Source: Rhodothermales bacterium
GTDB lineage: Bacteria > Bacteroidota > Rhodothermia > Rhodothermales > JANQRZ01
NCBI GenBank assembly: GCA_039944855.1
Contig: JBDUXZ010000002.1
Span: 1-64,000, forward strand
Direction: 5' to 3'
DNA: 64,000 bases
The notes beneath the pieces are model-generated. The model had not been told where the DNA came from and made no database searches. It saw only the letters and a program-made list of their open reading frames with translations. Positions within the stretch are counted from its first letter, which is position 1; every line of letters starts with the position of its first letter. Below are positions 21,166 to 34,428 of this stretch, piece after piece. Made by a program: the position numbers and the translations under genes.

Positions 21166-23013
21166 TTAATCGTGCTTCGATTTCGGTTGCGCCAGCCCGA
21201 GGTCGACGGACTTGTGCATCTCCTGCGGCCCGCCCTGCTCGGGGTTCGGGACCGGAGCGGGCATGCCGGGCACGCGGCCCGCGCTGCCGTCGCCGCCCGT
21301 GCCGTCGCCGGAGCCGTCGCCCGCGAAGAGCGCGTCGTAGTCGTAGGGGCCGTGCGTGACGAGCGGCGTGCGGTGGAAGTTGTGGTGGTCCGGCGGGCTC
21401 GTCGTGTGCGTCCACTCCAGCGTCGCCGCGCCCCACGGGTTGCCGGGCGCGGGCTTGCCACGGAACAACGACCATATCATGTTGCCGAGCACCATCAGCA
21501 GCCCGAGCCCGAGGAACCACGAGCCGACGGTCGAGACCATGTGGAGGTCGTGGTACTGGTCGAGATAGGTGAAGTAGCGGCGCGGCATGCCCTGGCTGCC
21601 CAGGACGAACTGCGTGAAGAACGTCATGTTGAAGCCAAAGAACGCGACCACGGCCGAGATCCGGCCCCACCGTTCGCTCATCATCTTCCCGAACATCTTC
21701 GGCCACCAGTAGAACAGCCCGCCGATCATCGCGAACACCGTCCCGCCCATCATCACGTAGTGGAAGTGGGCGACGATGAAGTACGTGTCGTGGAGGTGGA
21801 TGTCCACGCCGATCGCGCCGACCATGATGCCCGTCAGCCCGCCGATCGTGAAGAGGAACAGGAAGGCGAGCGCGTAGAGCATCGGCGTCGCCAGCCACAC
21901 CGAGCCCTTGTACATCGTCGCCACCCAGTTCAACACCTTGATGCCGGAGGGCACGCCGATGAGGAACGTAATGACGGAGAACACGATCGACGAGAGCGGG
22001 CTCTGGCCGGAGACGAACATGTGGTGGCCCCACACGAAGAACCCGAGCATGGCGATCGCCACCGATGAGAGCGCGATCGCGCGGTAGCCGAACACCTTCT
22101 GCCGGCTGAACACGCCCATCAGCTCCGAGATCACCCCGAAGGCGGGGAGAATCATGATGTAGACGGCGGGGTGGCTGTAGAACCAGAAGAAGTGCTGGAA
22201 GAGCACGGGGTCGCCGCCGAGCGCCGGGTCGAAGATGCCGATGTTGAGGAACCGCTCCATCGCGAGGAGCAGCATCGTGATGCCGATGACGGGCGTGGCG
22301 AGGATCTGCACGATCGAGACGGCATAGAGCGCCCAGATGAAGAGCGGCAGCCGGTTCCACGTCAGCCCCGGCGCGCGCATCTTGTGGATCGTGACGATGA
22401 AGTTGATCCCGGTCAGGATACTCGCGAAGCCGGCCACGAAGACGGCGAGCGTCATCGGGAGCACGGCCGTGTTCGTCGTGTCGGAGTACGGCGTGTAGAA
22501 CGTCCAGCCCGTGTCAATGCCGCCCGTGAAGATGGCGTAGAGCGCGATGCTCGCGCCGGCGAGGAAGATGTAGTACGAGGCGAGGTTCAGCTTGGGGAAC
22601 GCCACGTCTTTGGCGCCGAGCTGGATCGGAAGCGCGAAGTTGCCCAGCGACGCCGGGATGCTAGGCACGATGAAGAGGAACACCATCACCACGCCGTGGA
22701 ACGTGAACAGCCGGTTGTACTGGTCCGCCGTGAGGAAGTCGGAGCCGGGGTTCATCAGCTCGGCGCGCACGCCGAGCGCGGCAATCCCGGCGACGGCGAA
22801 GAAGAGCGAGACCGTGAAGAGGTACATCACCCCGATCCGCTTGTGGTCGACCGTCGTCGCCCACGCTTTGATCGTCGGCCATACGCGGGCGAAGCCGCGC
22901 ACGTCGGGGCCGGGACCCGGTTCGAGGAGGTAGTGGTGGACGGGCTCGTGACCGGGCGGGTACGCCCGCGTGGCGGGCTCCGTGCGGACAGGGGCGGTGG
23001 CGACCGTGCTCAT
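21166..23013 (-). CDS. ctaD: caa3-type cytochrome c oxidase subunit I (A2 type)
   Basis: A 615-residue catalytic subunit with 12 or more helices carrying haem a, haem a3 and CuB. Ligands visible in order: the haem a histidine in [11 protein letters not shown], the CuB His-Tyr pair in [17 protein letters not shown], the CuB pair in [10 protein letters not shown], and the haem histidines in [16 protein letters not shown]. The conserved Glu of HPEVY is replaced (HPAVY) and preceded by Tyr-Ser. This is the YSHPxV signature of A2 oxidases such as R. marinus caa3, where Tyr/Ser take over proton delivery. The C-terminal 60 residues are soluble, Gly/Asp-rich. It pumps protons while reducing oxygen. 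Confidence 0.96.
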
Positions 23014-23062: not shown

Positions 23063-24118
23063 CTATTCGGCGGGAACGGGTTCGGCGGCGGGATCAGCAG
23101 CAGGGACCGCAGCGCTATCGGCGGGGGCGGCGGTGCTGTCGGAGGCGGCAGCAGCTGCGGCGTCCTCGTCCGACCAGTCGCCGTTGATCTCGCGGATGTA
23201 GGCGACGATCCCGGCGAGTTGGCGCTCGGTGAGGTTCGGGTACGCCGGCATCGCCGCGTTCTCGTATCCCTGTACGATGTGGGCCTGCGGTGCAACGATG
23301 GACTCAACCGTGTAGTTCGCGTCCATCACCGCGCTGCCGCCGTCCGCGAAGGGGCGCACCTCGCCCCACGTCCCGAGCCAGCTCGGCCCGACCTTCGCGG
23401 AGCCGTCGATGGAGTGGCACGCGTTGCACGCCTGCTGCGTGTAGAGCTGCTCGCCTAGGCGCGGGAGCGGGAGGTCGTCGCCGCCGCCGCCGGTCTGGAG
23501 CCACTCGTTGAACGTGCCCCGGTCCACGGCGATCACCTTCGCGTACATCTCCGAGTGGCTCGTCCCGCAGTACTCCGTGCAGAAGACCTGATACTCCCCG
23601 GCCTCCTTCACCTCGAACCAGACCGTCGTGTACCGGTTGGGCACCGCGTCGTGCTTGACGCGGAACGAGGGGATGTAAAACGAGTGGAGCACGTCCGTCG
23701 ACGTCATCACGAGCTGCACCGGCTCGCCGACGGGCACGTAGAGGTCGCCGACGCTCGTGGAGCCGTTGGGGTACTCGAACTCCCACAGCCACTTCTTCCC
23801 GACGACGCGGATTTCGTACGAGTTGTCCGGCGCGATCCCCGCGCTGACGAACGTTTGGAAGCCCCAGAAGAACACGACGAGGACGAGGAGCGACGGGATG
23901 ATCACCCACGACAGCTCCAGCCACTTGCTCGGGTGCACCTCGACCGGTCGGTCGGCGTGCGAGCGGCGGCGGTACTTCCACGCGTAGTACACCATGTAGA
24001 ACGTGACGCCCGCCATCACGACGACGCTCGCCCACAGGATGAAGTTGAAGAGGGCGTCGATCTCGTGCGCCGTCGTCGACGCCTGAGGCGGCAGCCAGAA
24101 GGTTCCTTTGTCTTCCAT
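23063..24118 (-). CDS. ctaC: caa3 oxidase subunit II with fused cytochrome c domain
   Basis: A 351-residue subunit II. Two membrane helices (about residues 22-48 and 70-95) anchor it. The periplasmic cupredoxin domain carries the CuA ligands in VFCTEYCGTSHSEMYAKV with an upstream His in DVLHSFYIPSF. A cytochrome c domain follows from about residue 222: the haem motif is CNACHS and the likely distal Met is in NAAMPAYPNLT. This fused haem is what makes the enzyme caa3, letting it accept electrons directly from ACIII or a soluble cytochrome. The C-terminus is an Ala/Asp/Pro tail of about 35 residues. It is 77 bp after the SCO1 gene. Confidence 0.96.
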   Translation of the reverse strand: MEDKGTFWLPPQASTTAHEIDALFNFILWASVVVMAGVTFYMVYYAWKYRRRSHADRPVEVHPSKWLELSWVIIPSLLVLVVFFWGFQTFVSAGIAPDNSYEIRVVGKKWLWEFEYPNGSTSVGDLYVPVGEPVQLVMTSTDVLHSFYIPSFRVKHDAVPNRYTTVWFEVKEAGEYQVFCTEYCGTSHSEMYAKVIAVDRGTFNEWLQTGGGGDDLPLPRLGEQLYTQQACNACHSIDGSAKVGPSWLGTWGEVRPFADGGSAVMDANYTVESIVAPQAHIVQGYENAAMPAYPNLTERQLAGIVAYIREINGDWSDEDAAAAAASDSTAAPADSAAVPAADPAAEPVPAE

Positions 24119-24195: not shown

Positions 24196-25041
24196 TCAAG
24201 AGGGCGTCAGCGTCGGGTCCGCCGCGTCGAGTCGGGTGCTCTCACGGCGCCAGAAAAACAGGAGGAAGCCACCGAGCAGGATGAGCGTCAGCACGCCGCC
24301 GACTTTCATCGCATTCGTCGCGTGAAGGACGTAGGAGCCGGCGTCGGGGTCGTACTGAAAGCAGTAGAGGATGAGTTGGTCGAGCGGCGAGGCAATTGTG
24401 CCGCTGCCCGCTTCGAGCACAGCCGTGCGGAAGTCGCGCGGGTGGAACTCGAGGCCGTAGAGATAGCGCGTGATGACGCCTTCCGGGCTGATGAAGTAGA
24501 CGGCAGCGGTGTGCGCGAACTCCTGCTGCCGCTCGTTCCACTCGAAGCCGAAACCGATCTCGTCGGTGATCCGGTCGATGCTCTCCTGCGAGCCGGTGAG
24601 GAAGTACAACCCCTCGGCGGCCTGCGCCCCGTCGAAGCGGGCGAGGTAGCGCTCTCGGACCTCGGCGGCCCGCTCAGGCGTGTCGCGCGGGTCGAACGAG
24701 ATCGCGAGCGCCTGATAGTCGTCGCCGAGATCGAGGCCGGCCTCCCGCATCGCCGTCGTCATCCCGTCGAGGATGAGACTGCACAGCATCGGGCAGTTGT
24801 GGTAGACGAAGGCGACGGCGACGGGCCGTTCGCCGTCGAAGTAGTCGCCGAGCGTGACGGCGTTGCCTTCGGAATCGACGAACGCGATGTCAGACGACAC
24901 CGTCTCGCCGAGGTGCTCTTCGATGCCGACGCCGTCGAGCTCGTCGGGGATCTCACCGGGCGTCTGCGCTACAGATCGGCCGGCTGTGGTCAGCAGGACC
25001 ACGGCGAACAGGCAGGCGATCAGAGCGCGTAGCGTCATCAT
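24196..25041 (-). CDS. SCO1/SenC copper chaperone for oxidase assembly
   Basis: A 281-residue exported thioredoxin-fold copper protein of the SCO family, which loads the CuA site of subunit II. A signal peptide (residues 1-26, ending SVAQ) is followed by the copper motif VYHNCPMLCSLI, with cysteines 83 and 87, and a downstream histidine in EFAHTAAVYFISPEG. A C-terminal membrane helix (about residues 245-267, GGVLTLILLGGFLLFFW) anchors it, which is not typical of the mitochondrial type. It starts 3 bp after the unknown gene upstream and immediately precedes ctaC, as expected for its job. Confidence 0.92.
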   Translation of the reverse strand: MMTLRALIACLFAVVLLTTAGRSVAQTPGEIPDELDGVGIEEHLGETVSSDIAFVDSEGNAVTLGDYFDGERPVAVAFVYHNCPMLCSLILDGMTTAMREAGLDLGDDYQALAISFDPRDTPERAAEVRERYLARFDGAQAAEGLYFLTGSQESIDRITDEIGFGFEWNERQQEFAHTAAVYFISPEGVITRYLYGLEFHPRDFRTAVLEAGSGTIASPLDQLILYCFQYDPDAGSYVLHATNAMKVGGVLTLILLGGFLLFFWRRESTRLDAADPTLTPS

Positions 25042-25044
25042 CTA

Positions 25045-25806
25045 TCAGCGATCTTCGGGTTCTTCCGTCGGAGGTACATCGGTCTCTGCTTCAACGTCCG
25101 AGCCTTCTGCTTCCGTGCCCGGCCCGAGGTCGACGCCCGGCTGCGGGATCGTCTGCTCGCGCTGGATCAGGCTGTCGTAGCCGAGCGCGTCGAGTTCGTA
25201 CTCCCGGACACCGACTTCCGACTCGCGGATGGCGTCGAGGTAGAGCGTGCTGAAGTTGTCGGGCGCGGGGACGACCCCGTCGCTCCCCTCCTGTTGGGCG
25301 TAGTACGCTTCGGACACCTGGCTCATCGCTGCGCCGATGGGGAGCCGGTACAGGCTATCGGTGCGGCTGTAGTTCTCCATCTCGGCGGCCACGCGCTGGA
25401 CCTCGCGCAACTCCGGGTACAACACGACGGCGTCGCGCTCGACGGTCTTCTCGTCGGCGACTTCGGCCACGAGGAAAAACACGCCGAACACGGCGAGGCC
25501 GAGCGTGATCGCCGTCGCGAGCATGATCGAGAAGATCTGCGCGGCTTCGACGCCCTCGCCTTCGGCCCCGAGGCGCTCCGCCTCGGCCTGGGCGTCGGGA
25601 TCCCCCGTCACCTCCGCCGACACCTCGGCCGCCGATGCCTCCATCAACCCCTCGATGGGACCGAGTTCTTCCTGCTGATCGGGGCGCACTTCCCCCCTCG
25701 CTTCGGGCCGGGTGTGCGCATCCGGCGCGGGCGTCGGCTCTCCGCGATGCGGGTCCGGGGTGGGGCGGGGCGTGCCCTGAGGAGTATCGGAGTCGTGGTC
25801 AGCCAT
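25045..25806 (-). CDS. One-helix membrane protein at the head of the SCO-caa3 unit, unknown
   Basis: A 253-residue protein with a charged, Pro/Glu-rich N-terminal part (residues 1-90), one strong membrane helix (about residues 93-118, FSIMLATAITLGLAVFGVFFL split) and a C-terminal domain that ends in an acidic tail. No known family is recognised. The ATG at 25806 (MADHDSD) is chosen; an in-frame upstream start at 25824 is less likely. It is the first gene after the second copy of the 22-bp palindrome and precedes SCO1 by 3 bp. It could be an ACIII or oxidase accessory subunit, or an ACIII-oxidase supercomplex linker; this is inference from position. Confidence 0.75.
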   Translation of the reverse strand: MADHDSDTPQGTPRPTPDPHRGEPTPAPDAHTRPEARGEVRPDQQEELGPIEGLMEASAAEVSAEVTGDPDAQAEAERLGAEGEGVEAAQIFSIMLATAITLGLAVFGVFFLVAEVADEKTVERDAVVLYPELREVQRVAAEMENYSRTDSLYRLPIGAAMSQVSEAYYAQQEGSDGVVPAPDNFSTLYLDAIRESEVGVREYELDALGYDSLIQREQTIPQPGVDLGPGTEAEGSDVEAETDVPPTEEPEDR

Positions 25807-25841
25807 GGTGATGCAGGGTAACACGCGACGGGCGCGTCCTT

Positions 25842-25863
25842 GTTTTCAATAAAAAGTGAAAGC
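25842..25863 (-). promoter_or_regulatory. 22-bp inverted repeat upstream of the SCO-caa3 unit
   Basis: On the minus strand: GCTTTCA, 8 nt (CTTTTTAT), TGAAAAC. It ends 36 bp before the ATG at 25806. The same 7-8-7 architecture, the same arms and a T-rich centre on the same strand occur before actA (34392-34413). A GC-rich hairpin (25882-25897, 6-bp stem, no T-tract) lies just upstream, after the actF stop. Confidence 0.7.
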
Positions 25864-25922
25864 GGAATGAAACGTGCCGCTGCCCCCATCTGGGGGCCAT
25901 CCCGCTCTCGAACCGGCGCTGC

Positions 25923-27191
25923 TTACACGTTCTGGAAGCGGAGGGAAAACGCGTAGTACGGATCGTTGTACGGCGTGATGCTGTGCCGCGACGCCCGCCA
26001 CAGCGTAGCCCCCGTGAACACGCCGACCATCCCGAGCCAGAGTGTGATGTCGGTCCACGTAAGAGCCGCGTGTGCGTACGCCTCGTTATCGGTGGCGACG
26101 TAGAGGTTCGGCTTGATGAGCCACCACAGGTCGACCCAATGCATCACGAGGAGCCACACGCACATCACGGCGAGGACGGGATAGAGGCGCTTCGTGAAGC
26201 GGGGGATCAGGATGAAGAACGGCAGGATGAAGTGGAACCAGATGAGGGCGACGGTGACCGTCTCCCACCCGTGCGTCATCCGGTGCGTGAACCAGACCGT
26301 TTCTTCCGGGAGGTTGGCGTACCAGATCAGCATGTACTGGCTGAAGGCGATGTACGTCCAGAAGACGGTGAACGCGAAGAGGTACTTGCCGAGGTCGTGG
26401 TAGTGCTCCTCCCCCACTTCGAGCTTGAGCATGCCAGTCTGCCGGTAGGCCAGCGCCATGAGCGTCGTGGCCGCGATGCCGGCGAGGAACGCCCCGGCGA
26501 AGAAGTAGACGCCGAACATGGTCGAGAACCAGTGCGGGTCGAGGCTCATCACGAGGTCGTACGACGCGAAGGCCGTCGTGACGGCGACGAGCGGGATGCC
26601 CCACGCGCTGACGCGGCGGAGGTCGGCGCCGACATCGGCGCGCGGCTCGGTGTCCTGTCGCACGGAGATGCGGTAGAGCTTCGTCGAGACGATGATCCAC
26701 GCCGCGAAGTAGACGACGATGCGGACGTAGAAGAACGGGAGGTTGAGGTAGCCCTGCTTGCCGGCAATCACCGCGTCGTAGTGCGGGTCGAGCGGGTCGA
26801 AGAGCTCCGCGTGCGTCCAGTGGTAGAGATCGTGCATCGTAGACGGCAACAGCAACGGGAGGCCGAGGATCGCCAGCAGCCAGAAGTTCGCCATCAGCAT
26901 CTCGGGAAAGCGGCGGACGGCCGTGACCCACTTCGCGCGGGGGACGTGCTGGAACATCACGAAGAAGAGGGCGCCGATCGACACCGAGAGGCAGAACACC
27001 CACGCCGTGAGGTACGAGTACCAGAACGAGTAGTGGTCGCCGAAGAGCCCGACGAGGCTCACGAGCAGGAGCGCGGCGCCGAGGGCGAGCGGAACGAGCC
27101 ACGCGCGCGAGTCCGCCGTGAACTGGTACTTCCGCGCGACGCGCTCGCGGTCGGCGGCCACGGGGTCGATGATGCGGGTGAAGAGGCTCAT
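25923..27191 (-). CDS. actF: Alternative complex III subunit ActF
   Basis: A 422-residue membrane subunit of ACIII, of the NrfD-like/ActC-related family with about ten helices. Recognisable parts: AKYQFTADSRAWL-type N-terminus, LLVSLVGLFGDHYSFWYSYLTAWVFCLS (in parts), QHVPRAKWVTAVRRFPEM, SYDLVMSLDPHWFSTMFGVYFFAGAF, and FAFTVFWTYIAFSQYMLIWYANLPEET. These match quinol:cytochrome c oxidoreductase quinone-binding subunit 2. With ActC it forms the membrane core. It follows actE by 45 bp and is the last act gene; a GC-rich hairpin and a second operator follow its stop codon. Confidence 0.94.
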   Translation of the reverse strand: MSLFTRIIDPVAADRERVARKYQFTADSRAWLVPLALGAALLLVSLVGLFGDHYSFWYSYLTAWVFCLSVSIGALFFVMFQHVPRAKWVTAVRRFPEMLMANFWLLAILGLPLLLPSTMHDLYHWTHAELFDPLDPHYDAVIAGKQGYLNLPFFYVRIVVYFAAWIIVSTKLYRISVRQDTEPRADVGADLRRVSAWGIPLVAVTTAFASYDLVMSLDPHWFSTMFGVYFFAGAFLAGIAATTLMALAYRQTGMLKLEVGEEHYHDLGKYLFAFTVFWTYIAFSQYMLIWYANLPEETVWFTHRMTHGWETVTVALIWFHFILPFFILIPRFTKRLYPVLAVMCVWLLVMHWVDLWWLIKPNLYVATDNEAYAHAALTWTDITLWLGMVGVFTGATLWRASRHSITPYNDPYYAFSLRFQNV

Positions 27192-27236
27192 GCTGGAAGC
27201 GGTGAGGCGGGGTGAGGGTCGGAAGGCGACTCGCCC

Positions 27237-27899
27237 TTACGGCTGGATGGTGACGTTGGGGTTGTACGCCTCGAGCTGGTCGCGGATCGGGGCCGGGACG
27301 TCGCCCGCGCCCGCGTTCTGCGAGCGCTGGAGGGCACGGATGTAGCTCACGATCGCCCAGCGGTCGGGCACGGAGATCTGGTGCGCGTAGCTCGGCATGC
27401 TGCGGACGCCGTTCGCGATGGCGTCGTAGAAGTAGCCGTCGGCGCGGGCGCGGAGCGCGTCGGTGTGGTAGCTGGGGGCCGGGACGTAGCCGTAGCCCTG
27501 CCCGCCGTTGCCGACCATGATGATGCCGAGCCCATCGCCCGAGTAGCCGTGGCACGGCGTGCAGAAGATGTTGTAGCGCTCCTGCCCGCGCGCGAGCACG
27601 GCCGGGGTGACTTCCATCGGGATCGCCGGCACGTACGCGCCGTCGGGCGTGCGGCCGAGGAAATACGGAGCGTTCTCCGACGTCCGCAGCCCGGTCCGCT
27701 TGACGGTGCCGGGGACGGTCGGCCGCATCGCCGCGTCGTCGGCGAAGAAGGGGTTGGCCTCCTGCGCCTCGAAGGACTCCTGGAAGTCCATGTTGAGGTT
27801 GGGGTGGATCGGCGGGTTCTCCGAGTGCATCCCGCGGCACCCGCCGAGGGCGGAGCCGAGGCCGATCGCGGCGGCGAGGAAAAGCGTGGTTCGCATCAT
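27237..27899 (-). CDS. actE: ACIII subunit ActE, lipoprotein mono-haem cytochrome c
   Basis: A 220-residue lipoprotein. The signal peptide ends in a good lipobox (ALGGC, Cys21), so it is anchored by lipid on the periplasmic face. One haem-binding motif is present, FCTPCHGYSGDG, with a likely distal Met in MPSYAHQISVPDRWAIVSYIRALQ. ActE passes electrons from ActA towards the oxidase. The start is one of two adjacent ATGs (27899 or 27896). It lies 44 bp after actD in the operon and precedes actF. Confidence 0.94.
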   Translation of the reverse strand: MMRTTLFLAAAIGLGSALGGCRGMHSENPPIHPNLNMDFQESFEAQEANPFFADDAAMRPTVPGTVKRTGLRTSENAPYFLGRTPDGAYVPAIPMEVTPAVLARGQERYNIFCTPCHGYSGDGLGIIMVGNGGQGYGYVPAPSYHTDALRARADGYFYDAIANGVRSMPSYAHQISVPDRWAIVSYIRALQRSQNAGAGDVPAPIRDQLEAYNPNVTIQP

Positions 27900-27943
27900 A
27901 TCACGTTGGAAGCGAGCAGGGGGACGGAGGGCGTAGCGCCTCC

Positions 27944-28612
27944 TCAGATCGCGCGTGTGGTGTGGGGCGGCGGGGGCGCAGCGGGCGGCGCGTCGTCGAC
28001 CGTCACCACCTCGCCGCGCTCGTCGAGGTCGTAGGCGCCGTCGTGATCGACGTACTCGACGCCGAGGGCGCCGTGGTCGCGGAGGAGCGCGGCCGTCGCA
28101 GCCCGGTCGAACTGCTTGTCGCCCTGCGCGACCTGGAGGAAGAAGCCGTCGTCGGTGGCGCGGGCGAAGCGCTGCGAGTAAAAGAGCGGGTTGTACGGCT
28201 TCGGCAGGCCGTTGAGCGCGAACATCCCGCCGACGGCCGCGAGCGCGGAGAAGAGGATCGTCAGCTCGAACGCGATCGGCACGCTCGGCTCGACCGAGAA
28301 GAACGGCTTGCCGCTGATGTTGAGCGGGTAGTCGACGGCGCCCATCCACCACTGCATGAGGAAGGCGAGGGCGCAGCCCGTGAGCCCGCCGCCGATCACG
28401 AGGTAGCCGAGCTTCGAGGGGCTCAGCCCCATCGCGCGGTCCATCCCGTGGATCGGGAACGGCGAGAACGTGTCGATCTGCGTGTAGCCCGCGCGGCGGA
28501 CCGACTCCACGGCCTCGACGAGGTCGCCGGGGTTCGAGAACTCCGCGAGGAGGCCGACGTGCTTGTCGGCGCGGGCACGGAGGGCGTTGTCGATGAAAGC
28601 GGGGAGTGCCAT
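27944..28612 (-). CDS. actD: ACIII subunit ActD (DUF3341)
   Basis: A 222-residue DUF3341 protein with two central membrane helices (about residues 70-95 and 112-135). Conserved features include GLLAEFSNPGDLVEAVESVRRAGY near the N-terminus, FSPFPIHGMDRAMGL, and GLPKPYNPLFYSQRFARATDDGFFL. ActD packs at the membrane interface of ACIII and carries no cofactor. The C-terminal 25 residues are Pro/Ala-rich. It follows actC after a 76-bp gap that is filled by a GGTTTG-type repeat array. Confidence 0.94.
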   Translation of the reverse strand: MALPAFIDNALRARADKHVGLLAEFSNPGDLVEAVESVRRAGYTQIDTFSPFPIHGMDRAMGLSPSKLGYLVIGGGLTGCALAFLMQWWMGAVDYPLNISGKPFFSVEPSVPIAFELTILFSALAAVGGMFALNGLPKPYNPLFYSQRFARATDDGFFLQVAQGDKQFDRAATAALLRDHGALGVEYVDHDGAYDLDERGEVVTVDDAPPAAPPPPHTTRAI

Positions 28613-28614
28613 AA

Positions 28615-28683
28615 GAGGTTTGGGGTTTGAGGTTTGGAGTCTTGGGTTCTCATTCTCGAACCTCGAACCCCAAACCCACAACC
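28615..28683. repeat. Imperfect inverted array of GGTTTG words between actC and actD
   Basis: The left half (28615-28651) is made of GGTTTGGGG and GGTTTGAGG words; the right half (28657-28683) is made of the complementary CGAACC and CCCCAAACCC words. It can fold into a long imperfect stem. The same family occurs at 19294-19365 and 33488-33556. Confidence 0.7.
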
Positions 28684-28688
28684 GATAA

Positions 28689-30188
28689 CTAGCCTTTGTT
28701 GTCCTGCTCGGTGGCGGCAGTGCGGTAGGCGACGCGCGGCTCGGCCGGGGCACCGTCGGTCGCGCCGTGGCCGTCGCCGTGGGTGTGGTAGAAATGCGGG
28801 TCGGCCTGCGGCGTCACGGCCTTCACCTCGGAGATCGCTACCATCGGGACGAAGCGGAGGAAGAGGAGGAAGAGCGTGAAGAACAGCCCGAACGTGCCGA
28901 TGTACGTCGCCACGTCGACGATCGTCGGCGAGAAGTAGTCCCACGACGAGGGGAGGTAGTCGCGGTGGAGGCTGGTCACCGTGATGACGAAGCGCTCGAA
29001 CCACATCCCGATATTGACGACGATCGAGAGCGCGAACATGACGGGGATCGAGCGGCGGAACCGCTTGAACCAGAAGAGCTGGGGGAAGACGAGGTTGCAC
29101 GTCATCATGATCCAGTACGCCCACGCGTACGGCCCCGTCGCCCGGTTGAGGAAGGCGAACTGCTCGTAGACCACGCCGGAGTACCACGCGATGAAGAACT
29201 CCGTGATGTAGGCGAACCCGACGATCGTGCCCGTGACGAGGATGATCACGTTCATCTTCTCGAGGTGGTCGAGCGTGATGAGGTTCTCGAGGTTGTACAC
29301 CTTCCGCGCGACGATCATCAGCGTCACCACCATCGCGAAGCCGGAGAAGATGGCGCCGGCGACGAAGTAGGGCGGGAAGATCGTCGTGTGCCAGCCGGGC
29401 ACGATGGAGATGGCGAAGTCGAAGGAGACGACGGAGTGGACCGAGAGCACGAGCGGCGTCGCGAGGCCGGCGAGGATGAGGTAAGCCTTCTCGTAGTGGC
29501 GCCAGTGGCGGTTCGAGCCGGTCCAGCCCATCGAGAGGATGCCGAGGATTTTGGCGCGGAGGTTCCGGCCCTGCGCCACGGCGCGGTCACGGAGCGTGCC
29601 GAGGTCGGGCACGAGGCCGACGTACCAGAACAGGAGCGAGACCGTGCCGTAGATCGACACCGCGAACACGTCCCAGAGCAGCGGCGACTTGAACTGCGGC
29701 CACATCGCCATCTGGTTCGGGAGCGGCAGCGTCCAGAAGATCACCCAGACACGCCCCACGTGGAACGTCGGGAAGACGAGGGCGCAGGCGACGGCGAAGA
29801 GCGTCATCGCCTCGGCGGCGCGGTTGATCGAGGTCCGCCAGCGCTGGCGGAAGAGGAAGAGGATGGCCGAGATGAGCGTCCCGGCGTGGCCGATGCCGAC
29901 CCACCACACGAAGTTGACGATGGGCCAGCCCCACGCCACGGGCACGTTGTTGCCCCAGACGCCGACGCCGTTCCACACCTGGTAGGCGAGGGCGAGCCCG
30001 AGGATCATCAGCCCGCCGAGCGCGGCGCTGAAGGCGATGAGCCACCCGACCGGCGTCTTCTTCTCGGAGTGGTACGAGACCATCTCCGTGATGTCGTGGA
30101 ACGAGAGGTTCCCCTTGACGAGGCGCTCGTCCTCGAGGAGGAAGTGCTCGTCGTGGTTACCGGTGTGGGTCGTTGCGGTCGTTGCCAC
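28689..30188 (-). CDS. actC: ACIII subunit ActC (NrfD-like quinone-binding membrane subunit)
   Basis: A 499-residue NrfD-family membrane subunit with about ten helices, thought to hold the menaquinol site of ACIII. Conserved parts: [19 protein letters not shown] near the N-terminus, [34 protein letters not shown] (in parts), [48 protein letters not shown] and EFFIAWYSG. No ATG exists at the N-terminus, so the GTG at 30188 (reading [16 protein letters not shown]) is proposed; this choice is uncertain by several residues. The C-terminal 40 residues are His/Gly-rich and soluble. A GTAG palindrome precedes it. Confidence 0.93.
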
Positions 30189-30228
30189 AGGATCAGGCGA
30201 TGGGTGAGCGCGCACCGTCGTGCGCAAG

Positions 30229-30256
30229 GTAGGGGCGCAGCACGCTGCGCCCGTAC
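30229..30256. repeat. 28-bp GTAG-ended palindrome between actB and actC
   Basis: GTAGGGGCGCAGC, a 2-nt centre (AC), then GCTGCGCCCGTAC. Only one position breaks the symmetry. It belongs to the same family as the palindromes at 7307, 52081 and 59551. Confidence 0.75.
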
Positions 30257-30259
30257 GGA

Positions 30260-33200
30260 TCAGGCGTCGAGGTCGTGCGTCGGGACGGGCTGGACCGTCT
30301 CGGGCTGCGGGCGCAGGAGCGCGTCGAGCGTCGGGTTCGGGTTGCGGAGGCGCGCGAGGTAGCTCAGGCGCGGCTTCACGTTGAGCTCTTCGAGCAGCTC
30401 GTAGCGCCGGCCGTTCCGCTTCATCTGCGAGACGAGCGAGTCCGGGTCCGAGATGTCGCCGAAGACGATGGCGTTCGTCGGGCACGTCTGCTGGCAAGCC
30501 GTCTGCACCTCGCCATCGTTCATCCCGCGGTCCTCGATGTGGGCCACGCGCTGGGCGCCGCGGATGCGCTGGATGCACCACGTGCACTTCTCCATCACGC
30601 CGCGGAAGCGCATCGTCACGTCGGGGTTCATCGCCATCTGGAGCTCGAGCGGGAGCGTCTTCGTCCAGTTGTAGAAGTTGAACCGGCGGACCTTGTACGG
30701 GCAGTTGTTCGAGCAGTAGCGCGTGCCGATGCAGCGGTTGTACGTCATCTCGTTGAGCCCGTCCGGGGAGTGGCTCGTGGCCGAGACCGGGCAGACGCTC
30801 TCGCACGGCGCGTACTCGCAGTGCTGGCACATCATCGGCTGCATCACCATGTCCGGCGACGGGCCGTACTCGCCCACGCCCTCGGTCTCGAACGGGTCGT
30901 CGGTCCACTCGCTGACGTAGTAGCGGTCCATCCGCAACCAGTGCATCTCGCGGCCCCGGCTGACCTGGTCCTTGCCGACGACCATGATGTTGTTCTCGCT
31001 CTGGCAGGCGACGACGCACGCGTTGCACCCGGAGCACGCGTTGAGGTCGATCGTCATCCCCCACTGCTGGTCCGAGTACATCGCCTCGCCGATGCGGGGG
31101 TCGCTGGCGGGGCTGTCGTCTTCGCCCCACGCCGGCGGGTAAATCTCCCACGGCGTGTCTTCGATGGGCTTGACCTCGCTGCGGGGGAAGCCGGTCTCGC
31201 GGTACTCCTCCAGCGACGCCATGCGGACGATCGGGCGGCCCTCCATCGAGCCGTGGTCCTGCGTCGTGGCGATCTGGTAGCCGTCGCTGACGATCGCGAC
31301 TTCGGCGGCGGGGATGACGGGGGCGCCGTCGGTGCCCCGGAGAAGCGCGGCGTTGGCCTTCGCACCGATGCCGTTCGCGACGGGGCCGGGCCGGTAGACG
31401 TCGGCGTCCTTGTCGAAGAGGCGGGCGAGGAGGTTGCGGTCGGTGATGAGCCGCTCGGTCTCGAGGTCGCGCCCGAAGCCCATCGTCACCGTGATCGAGT
31501 CGTTGGGGTGGCCGGGCTGGATCCACGCCGGCACCTCGATCACCTGATCGCCGACGCGGATCCCGATGATGCTGGTGTAGACGTTGCCTGACTCGACGGG
31601 CCCGCCTTCGAACGAGCCCTCGACGGCATCGATGCCGAGGCGGGCGGCCGTGACGGCGCTCATCTGCGCGACGGCGTCCCACGTCACTTTCGTGACCGGG
31701 TCCGGCAGCTCCTGCATCCACGCGTTGTTCGAGAAGAACCCGTCGTGCAGCCTCGGGTCCGGCCGGACGACGACTTCGAGCGCGCCCTCGACGGGCACGG
31801 GGAGCCGGGCGAGGGAGCCGGAGCCGCCCGCGCCGCCGGCGACGGCCGCGTACTGCGTGCCGGGGAGGAAGCCGTTGTGGAGGAGCGTCCGCCACGCATC
31901 TTCGAAGTTGCCGGAGAGCAGGCCCTGCGCGCGAACCGTCTCGCGGACGAGGTCGTAGCCCGCCGTGTCGGTGCCGGTCACGAGCGCGCTCAGCACTTCG
32001 GTCTCGGAGTGGGCGGCCTCGTAGAGCGGCGCGATGAGCGGCTGGATGACGGAGTACGTCCCATCATAGGCTCGGCCGTCGCCCCACTGTTCGAGGTAGT
32101 GCGTGCGCGGGAGGTGCCACGTGGCGAGCCGCGCCGTCTCGTCGCGGTGCGAGCCGAGGTGGATCGAGACGGGGACTTCGGCGAGCGCAGCGGCGAAGCC
32201 GAGCGCGGGCGGCGCGTCATAGACCGGGTTTACGCCGATCATCACGAGGGCGTCGACGGCGCCGGCGCCCATCTCGCGGACGAGCTGCTGCATGGCCTCG
32301 GCCTGCGGCACGGCGGACTCGGCGCCGGTGTCGAGGTACTGCACGGCGCCGTTGCTGAATTGGGTGTTGAGCCGGGCGCAGAGCGCCTGGATCGCCGGCG
32401 GCTGCGTCGGCCCGGCGACGAAGACCGTAGCCCCGGCGCGGGCGTCCTCGACGATCGCGCGGACGACGGGGTGCTCGGCCATGAGCTGGCCGGCGGCCCC
32501 GGCCTCGCCCATCCCGAGCCCGGCGGCGACGGCGGCGGCGAAGAACGGGATCGCGCCCGCCTTCATCGGCACGCGGTGGTCGGCCATCCCGCCGGTCGGC
32601 GTGTAGGCACTCTCCACGACGTAGAGCCGGCTCATCTCGTCGGTCGGCTCCAAGACGCGGCGGCTCTGGGCGTACTCGCGCGCGTTGTAGACGGCGTTCT
32701 CGGTCGAGAGGAAGTCGGCGTCGAACGAGACGATGGTCTGGGCCTGCGAGAAGCGGTAGAGCGGGCGGAGCGGGCGGCCCGCCGCCTCCTGTACGCCGAG
32801 CGACGCGGTGTCTTCACCGATGCCGCGATACGTGACCCAGCGGGCGTTCGGGTTCTGCGCGAGGAGCTGGTCCCGCAGCCGGAGCACCGTCGGCGACGAC
32901 GTGGGCTCGGAGAGGACGACGAGGCGGCGGCCCTGCAGCTGCCGCGTGAACCCGACGAAGTCGACCCAGCTCGCGTCACCGGTCTCGCGGCGCATCGTGC
33001 GCGAGCGGTCGGGGTCGTAGAGGTTGAGGATGCTCGCCTGCGCGAAAACGTCGGCCGCGCCCCGGTTCATCGGGTGCTCGGGGTTACCATCCACCTTCGT
33101 CGGGCGCCCTTCGTGGCTCTCCACGAGGAGGCCCTGCACGTAGCCGCCCATCGGCATCGCCGTGGCATAGAAGTTCGGGATGCCGGGGACGATGTCCTCG

Positions 33201-33481
33201 GGCTTGCGCGCGTACGGCAGCACGGCCTCGACGGGGCGGCGGCACCCGCTGAGCCCGACGCCCGCCATCGCCATCGACGCGCCCATGATCTTCATGAACG
33301 AGCGGCGGCTCGGTCCGGGGTCGCCGTCGAGTTCGCTGCGGTCCGTGGCGGCGGGGTGGAACTCGTCTTTGACGATGGCCCGGTGCCCGGCGGCGTTGCG
33401 CAGGTCGGCCTGGCTGCGCCAGAACTTCGGCTGGCCGTCGGCTGCGACGTCGGACGAGGAGAGGATATCGAGTTCGATCAT
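30260..33481 (-). CDS. actB: ACIII subunit ActB (iron-sulfur, molybdopterin-oxidoreductase-like)
   Basis: A 1073-residue periplasmic subunit, a fusion of a molybdopterin-oxidoreductase-like part and a ferredoxin-like part. A twin-arginine signal is at residues 59-80 ([19 protein letters not shown]), preceded by a TAT-typical cytoplasmic stretch. Four cubane-type cysteine sets lie near residues 810-960: [35 protein letters not shown] and CTWCIQ...CQQTC. In known ACIII the N-terminal part has lost the molybdenum cofactor, and nothing here suggests otherwise. ActB passes electrons to ActA. It lies 73 bp after actA. Confidence 0.96.
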
Positions 33482-33487
33482 GGGTGA

Positions 33488-33556
33488 GGGTTTGAGGTTC
33501 GAGGTTTGGGGTTATGGGTTCGAGACCCCAAACCCACAACCCCAAACTCACAACTC
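33488..33556. repeat. Imperfect inverted array of GGTTTG words between actA and actB
   Basis: GGGTTTGAGG, TTCGAGG and TTTGGGG words (33488-33524) face complementary CCCCAAACCC and CAACCCCAAAC words (33526-33556). The array fills the gap and ends at the actA stop codon. It is the third member of the family in the respiratory block. Confidence 0.7.
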
Positions 33557-34226
33557 AATAGTGACAGGCGGAGCAGTTTTCCGGCGGGTTGATGCCTTCG
33601 GCCTCGATGCGCGCGAGGTTCGCCGCGAGGTAGGCGCGGTACGACTCGTCGGTCTCGCGGACCTCCTCGGCGTAGCCCATCGCCGTCACGAGCTCGGGGT
33701 CGCGGAGGTGCTCCTCGGGCGCGCGGTGGCACTCGAGGCACCACGCCATCGACATCGGACTGACCTGGTAGACGACGGGCATCTGGTCGATCCGCCCGTG
33801 GCAGCTCTCACACCCGACGCCGACGGCGACGTGGTTGGCGTGCGGGAAGCGGGCGTAGTCGGCGAGGTGGTTCACCTGCACCCACTCGATGGGCTCGCCC
33901 GTGGCCCAGCTCTCGCGGACGGGCAGGAGGGCGAGCGACTCCGACTTGATCTGCGCGTGGCAGTTCATGCACGTCTGCGTCGGCGGGATGTTGGCGTGGG
34001 GCGACTGCTCGACGGCGCTGTGGCAGTAGCGGCAGTCCATCCCGAGCTGGCCGGCGTGCAGCGCGTGGCTGTACGGCACGGGCTGCGTGGGCTGGTAGCC
34101 GACCTCGTAGAACTCGGGCGAGAAGTAGTACCAGATCAGGCCGATGAGGAGGACGCCGCCGCCGAGCGCTCCGAAGAGCGAGAGCGCCGGGTACGTGTTT
34201 GCCTTGCGGGGGAAGAGTTGGGCCAT
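33555..34226 (-). CDS. actA: ACIII subunit ActA (penta-haem cytochrome c)
   Basis: A 223-residue penta-haem cytochrome c, the first gene of the ACIII operon. One N-terminal membrane helix (about residues 15-33) anchors it. Five CxxCH motifs follow: CRYCH, CMNCH, CESCH, CLECH and CSACH, the last only one residue from the C-terminus. ActA takes electrons from the iron-sulfur clusters of ActB and delivers them to ActE or cytochrome c. A promoter and the 22-bp palindrome lie about 165 bp upstream. Confidence 0.96.
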   Translation of the reverse strand: MAQLFPRKANTYPALSLFGALGGGVLLIGLIWYYFSPEFYEVGYQPTQPVPYSHALHAGQLGMDCRYCHSAVEQSPHANIPPTQTCMNCHAQIKSESLALLPVRESWATGEPIEWVQVNHLADYARFPHANHVAVGVGCESCHGRIDQMPVVYQVSPMSMAWCLECHRAPEEHLRDPELVTAMGYAEEVRETDESYRAYLAANLARIEAEGINPPENCSACHY

Positions 34227-34391
34227 CAGACGCGATGCTTCGGGTGAGCTTCGGGAGCCGGAGGAAGGGGGGCGAGCCGGCAGCAGACGAAGGTAGAAGG
34301 GGATGCGGGAACCCGCATTGAAGATACTTAGAAAAGCCTTTTCACGCGGGCACGAAAGGCCGAACTCTGAGCGCGGCAGTCGGCGCGGCCT

Positions 34392-34428
34392 GCTTTCAAA
34401 TAATAATGAAAGCCTTCGCTCTGGCCAA
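34392..34428 (-). promoter_or_regulatory. Promoter and 22-bp palindromic operator of the act operon
   Basis: On the minus strand TTG (34428-34426), 20 nt, then TATTATTTG (34405-34397) matches the Bacteroidota -33/-7 pattern. Overlapping the -7 region is a perfect inverted repeat: GCTTTCA, 8 nt, TGAAAGC (34392-34413). The same element precedes the SCO-caa3 unit at 25842-25863. A 5' leader of roughly 160 nt would follow; no clear structure was seen in it. Confidence 0.6.

Follow-up and report, generated by a model that had tools for sequence, protein, structure and literature searches.

The closest described counterparts of the system considered here are GbsR-type proteins of the MarR superfamily. 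CydE, a GbsR-type protein of Alishewanella (Xia et al. 2018, PMC6096048), represses the operon for cytochrome bd, a respiratory quinol-oxidising enzyme, and is itself encoded in that single local operon, which sulfate derepresses. CioR of Chromobacterium violaceum is likewise a GbsR-type repressor of a local cytochrome bd operon and of its own gene (PMC11837568). A survey of the GbsR family gave no consistent functional picture for Bacteroidetes members (PMC6207618), and a literature search found no earlier description of a respiratory GbsR regulon in Bacteroidetes or Rhodothermia. Here we consider a palindrome that occurs twice in the first 64,000 nucleotides of contig JBDUXZ010000002.1 of a Rhodothermales bacterium (assembly GCA_039944855.1), a stretch hereafter termed the window, once upstream of the act operon for alternative complex III (ACIII) and once upstream of a unit encoding an SCO-type copper chaperone and a caa3 oxidase (the SCO-caa3 unit). 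It is likely, with a probability of about 0.82, that the palindromes are operators bound by a dimeric winged-helix GbsR-type MarR protein, which would control a respiratory regulon as a ligand-released repressor.

Both palindromes are present on the minus strand where a sequence-only reading had located them. The act site (34392-34413, GCTTTCATTATTATTTGAAAGC) has perfect 7-bp arms around an 8-nt centre and is the only match without mismatch over the 14 arm positions in the whole genome (G000; 4,599,743 bp in 41 contigs, all of which were searched), while the SCO-caa3 site (25842-25863, GCTTTCACTTTTTATTGAAAAC) has an exact core with one mismatch in the outer arm. When up to one mismatch in the 14 positions is allowed, the window has two sites against about 0.002 expected from base composition, and the genome four against 0.15. 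The exact core, TTTCA-N8-TGAAA, is found nine times in the genome against about 0.19 expected on the same basis, with no occurrence of the control, i.e. the same pattern read backwards; the motif is thus not common genome-wide, at nine exact cores in 4.6 Mb. Four relatives have 48 exact cores and no backwards controls. The 8-nt spacing is specific: when spacings of 4-12 were compared in five genomes (G000, G001, G002, G013, and G032), 57 of the 67 matches had N8, compared with eight matches to the backwards control over all nine spacings. In 85 curated sites the core positions were selected for, so that their information content is not counted as evidence; outside the core the left arm is preceded by a purine then a non-A base, and the outer spacer positions favour T and A. 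The operator consensus is R-B-TTTCA-N8-TGAAA-V-Y. The operators of CRP and FNR (TGTGA-N6-TCACA and TTGAT-N4-ATCAA, respectively) do not match, differing in both core and spacing, and the earlier view that the palindrome is neither an FNR nor a CRP site is supported.

The genes that follow the motif form a coherent set. The ACIII operon (at actA) and the SCO-caa3 unit account for two of the nine exact cores; five others lie before sdhC, menF, dxs, a polyprenyl-diphosphate synthase gene, and, in the gap between nuoA and nuoB, the nuoB gene. The last two are found ahead of a gene for a MoxR-like AAA protein and ahead of a short gene that has one for a DisA-like protein behind it. Beyond the window, the two sites with at most one mismatch are one just upstream of sdhC, after the citrate synthase gene (C20:313744), and one some 65 nt before the isochorismate synthase gene menF (C23:1094), whose product scores above the TIGR00543 cut-off. 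The polyprenyl synthase and sdhC operators (L018, G000:C5:452996-453013, and L020, G000:C20:313746-313763) have the same 18 bases, TTTCAGGAATAAGTGAAA, an identity that includes the centre, and are in the same orientation to their genes.

Orthologous loci with a site are found in many families of the order, i.e. 15 for polyprenyl-diphosphate synthase, 10 for sdhC, eight each for nuoB and the SCO unit, seven for menF (which in family f12 is divergent from menG), five plus that of G039 for actA, four for dxs, and three for crtI, with two each for nuoI, DAHP synthase, ccmF, an NDUFA9-like protein, the MoxR-like and DisA-like proteins, and gcvP; in G013 ETF-QO and a chlorite-dismutase-like protein each carry one site. 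The SCO site is kept in place in G001 and G002, the two genomes of the same family, as well as in G013, G032, and G039 from other families. The act site is present in G013, G039, G046, G012, and G023; G032 keeps a degenerate copy where that of G039 is intact. Most placements before respiratory genes thus recur at orthologues in other families, and the proposal of a single regulator for the quinol-to-oxygen branch gains support from a rare, spacing-specific motif lying before genes for complexes I and II, ACIII, the caa3 oxidase, and menaquinone/isoprenoid synthesis. As judged from the genes concerned, the putative regulon is wider than the branch first proposed; most of its targets read as one pathway, from isoprenoid and chorismate supply through menaquinone, complexes I and II, ETF-QO, and ACIII to cytochrome c maturation and caa3.

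The conservation just described bears on a different explanation, in which the palindrome is an RNA hairpin, a terminator, or a chance repeat. Any 7-bp inverted repeat can form a stem; however, it is the sequence itself, rather than complementarity alone, that is conserved over families, the N8 spacing is specific, the reversed control is absent from genomes rich in the motif, and the targets recur as orthologues. In addition, no T-run was found after either of the window sites, and this explanation is scarcely credible.

The candidate regulator is encoded outside the window (C24:205596-206207). It is a MarR_2 protein (PF12802, 27.3 bits versus a cut-off of 27), the nearest structure to which is Mj223 (1ku9) by both sequence (E 9.8e-15) and fold (E 4.2e-9); it scores 59.4 bits with the GbsR/OpuAR osmostress (CudC) equivalog, far below the NCBIfam cut-off of 218. 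All 26 aligned sequences share the recognition-helix stretch SRGNANMNL without change. A thiol switch was considered and rejected, as the candidate has no invariant cysteine. Of 99 genomes of the order, 45 have an orthologue (E <= 1e-20), and orthologues also occur in genomes of other orders listed in a class-wide sample. In most translated loci of the order its neighbours, identified by eye, are a YraN-like gene and one in divergent orientation rather than cydAB; the divergent neighbour resembles S-adenosylmethionine hydroxide adenosyltransferase.

It is the position of the motif relative to this gene that points to its product. In G022 a perfect site stands 130 bp before the orthologous MarR-like gene. 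Of 30 orthologue loci, 11 have an exact core no more than 180 bp ahead of the coding start, where 0.02 would be expected for the 30; G003 is the twelfth genome with such a core, and the 12 genomes represent six families. A further 80 fetched loci, partly on contigs already covered, yielded four cores, every one of them in front of the gbsR-like gene; the remaining 251 kb had none. The probable start codon of the gbsR-like gene falls within the operator in G013 and G053, and G129, from another order of the class, has a paralogue preceded at 37 bp by a symmetrical site, TTTCAGTAATTACTGAAA. What can be read directly from the genomes is the site, how rare it is, its spacing, conservation, and target genes, and its placement at the promoter of the regulator in relatives. 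Consistent with the assignment, the CydE footprint TATTTCAGAAATTTCTGAAAGTTCA (PMC6096048) contains TTTCA-GAAATTTC-TGAAA, i.e. the exact core with N8. From the adjacency in 12 genomes and this footprint core, a computational link, we infer that the GbsR-like protein probably binds the sites in the present organism.

The comparison with characterised proteins of the family is informative in both directions. CydE is similar in being a GbsR-type MarR protein with the exact core in its site 1, but acts on the one operon holding its gene, whereas the Rhodothermales regulator would be unlinked from the scattered operons that it controls. With respect to CioR, an operator with TTTCA-N8-TGAAA was not found in the passages of its description consulted (PMC11837568). 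GbsR, OpcR, and OpuAR of Bacillus belong to the same family and have been modelled on Mj223, with B. subtilis GbsR repressing as a roadblock from operators downstream of the transcription start (PMC7396694, PMC6207618). By contrast with the present system, they control osmoprotectant genes, have choline/betaine ligands, and recognise an AT-rich inverted repeat with a 4-bp spacer, not N8.

Several observations weigh against the assignment. Conservation in close relatives, on which the earlier proposal depended, holds for the SCO-caa3 site; the act site, though present in other families, is absent from both same-family genomes, G001 and G002, even though the promoter block CTTTTCTATGTATCTTCAATGC is kept there. 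No site is present at the promoter of the gbsR-like gene of the organism itself, nor in G001, G002, G032, G039, or G046, and the 16 loci of family f18 likewise had no site upstream of the gbsR-like gene, which there seems to lie behind another open reading frame (ORF). The core is missing from the second CydE footprint. In family f13, sites are few in many genomes that do have an orthologue, and cores exceed the control in families f5, f14, and f15 (76/29, 15/1, and 143/34, respectively) without a close orthologue, an excess explained only in part by repeated near-identical copies. Overall, cores are 6.8-fold over the control in genomes with the orthologue and 2.8-fold in those without, so that the correlation of presence and absence is by itself too weak as proof of a link between regulator and site. 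Finally, at SCO, dxs, and actA the site precedes the presumed -7 box, a position for which activation and repression are equally likely. With regard to the f15 excess, G065, G082, and G085 have near-identical cores, e.g. TTTCACTCGCCCGTGAAA and TTTCAACTCAGAATGAAA, on several contigs, and these look like a separate repeat family rather than part of the respiratory regulon.

The occurrence of cores in families without a close GbsR orthologue could imply that motif and regulon are real but that another regulator binds, the gbsR-like gene being merely a target. Genes for a TetR protein (G002, L132) and a NarL-type response regulator (G032, L148) do adjoin exact sites; each does so once, compared with 12 genomes in six families for the gbsR-like gene, and a GbsR-type protein is footprinted on the same core in the case of CydE. 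Binding by such a different regulator is accordingly improbable, and the two proteins, together with a TetR protein encoded near crtI (L032), were rejected as candidates since each is beside a site once only.

Assuming that the GbsR-like protein is the regulator, the sign of its action has to be judged from the geometry of the promoters, whose -7-like boxes are guesses from consensus, and of the gene starts, which in relatives were taken from a simple ORF caller. The distance from the end of the core to the first ATG is 2-13 nt in 13 of 15 polyprenyl synthase loci and 2-22 nt in 14 of them, and is likewise 2-22 nt at crtI, ccmF, DAHP synthase, and moxR. The near-ATG operators at polyprenyl synthase, crtI, ccmF, and moxR must therefore overlap or follow the transcription start, unless the transcript is leaderless. 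Such positions, close to start codons, appear consistent with a repressor, and repression is the best reading for them.

Other sites are arranged differently. In family f1, 23 nt separate the core at the SCO unit from a TACCYT box; in the window this putative -7-like box (TACCCTGC, 25813-25820, minus strand) has a counterpart, TACCTTCC, at equal spacing in G001. At dxs and actA some 60-85 bp lie between the core and, downstream of it, the best -7-like box, which for act is TATCTTC (34320-34326) within an apparent promoter block on the minus strand (34315-34336, CTTTTCTAAGTATCTTCAATGC) that is common to both same-family genomes in the form CTTTTCTA[a/t]GTATCTTCAATGC (34336-34315). Because this conserved block stands about 55-95 bp downstream of the palindrome, the proposal of the sequence-only reading that the act palindrome overlaps a -7 box in use is doubtful. 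Nor does an operator arm appear to be built into the -7 box more generally, as TA at -4/-3 is found for 20 gene-facing arms and 15 far arms of the 85 sites, with no significant excess. A weak second copy with one core mismatch (TTTCGTGCCCGCGTGAAA, 34340-34357, minus strand) follows the main act operator and could be due to chance; none was found at the other actA promoters compared in relatives.

These spacings would suit an activator, or a dual regulator that activates from about 45-90 bp upstream, as at SCO, dxs, and act, and represses when bound at the gene start. By contrast, the characterised GbsR-type proteins, i.e. GbsR, OpcR, CydE, and CioR, are repressors (PMC7396694, PMC6096048, PMC11837568), and further promoters may overlap the sites, given that those considered are guessed. 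Activation or dual control is rather unlikely overall, though at the upstream sites either sign may apply.

In the repressor model, a dimer on an operator near the start codon would halt RNA polymerase (a roadblock) or keep it from the DNA (a steric block) until a ligand released the dimer; the regulator would in many relatives also repress its own gene. The predicted regulon comprises dxs, polyprenyl-diphosphate synthase, menF, the genes from nuoB onward, succinate dehydrogenase, ACIII, and the caa3 oxidase, to which menG, DAHP synthase, ETF-QO, CcmF, and phytoene desaturase would be added in relatives. It thereby appears to join quinone synthesis with the electron-transport complexes, ACIII included. 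On the evidence of sequence, one group of Bacteroidetes GbsR proteins can now be linked with a specific operator and with a regulon that is coherent. With respect to the ligand, SlyA of Salmonella, a MarR-superfamily regulator connected with respiration, is inhibited by the quinone precursor 4-hydroxybenzoate (PMC12506092), and offers a model, though it belongs to another subfamily and has other targets. By analogy with SlyA, and given the target set, a quinone precursor might be hypothesised as the ligand here. It may be, although this is tentative, that a feedback circuit operates in which the GbsR-type protein responds to the quinone pool or to a menaquinone precursor made from chorismate, so setting isoprenoids, menaquinone, complexes I and II, ACIII, and the oxidase in step across the Rhodothermales. 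FNR, CRP, ArcA, and Rex also exert global respiratory control, but are of other protein families and use other operators; such a circuit would imply a global respiratory regulator outside those families.

The genes behind the two window sites are all on the minus strand. The ACIII operon begins with actA (33555-34226), encoding a multihaem cytochrome c (Pfam Cytochrome_C7), followed by actB (30260-33481) for the iron-sulfur subunit (Pfam Fer4_7 and Fer4_11). The first gene of the SCO-caa3 unit (ORF 25045-25824, without a Pfam match) probably starts at the ATG at 25806, directly after the -7-like box, to give a coding region of 25045-25806; a protein similar to its product is also encoded after the operator in G001 and G002. 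It is followed by genes for the SCO1/SenC copper chaperone (24196-25041, PF02630), cytochrome c oxidase subunit II with a cytochrome c domain as in caa3 enzymes (23063-24118, COX2 and Cytochrom_C), and subunit I (21166-23013, COX1).

Some placements of the core involve genes of other kinds. It is repeatedly found in the upstream gap of a gene for a protein with two CBS domains (L223, L244, L263, L271, and L089), which is often divergent from an unassigned membrane-protein gene and near a DUF4230 gene. It also precedes the glycine dehydrogenase gene gcvP in two families (L238 and L089; G021 and G060) and, in G013 (L133), the gene for S-adenosylhomocysteine hydrolase. A protein with a DisA-type diadenylate cyclase domain is encoded downstream of the core in two genera of the organism's own family (L022 and L120).

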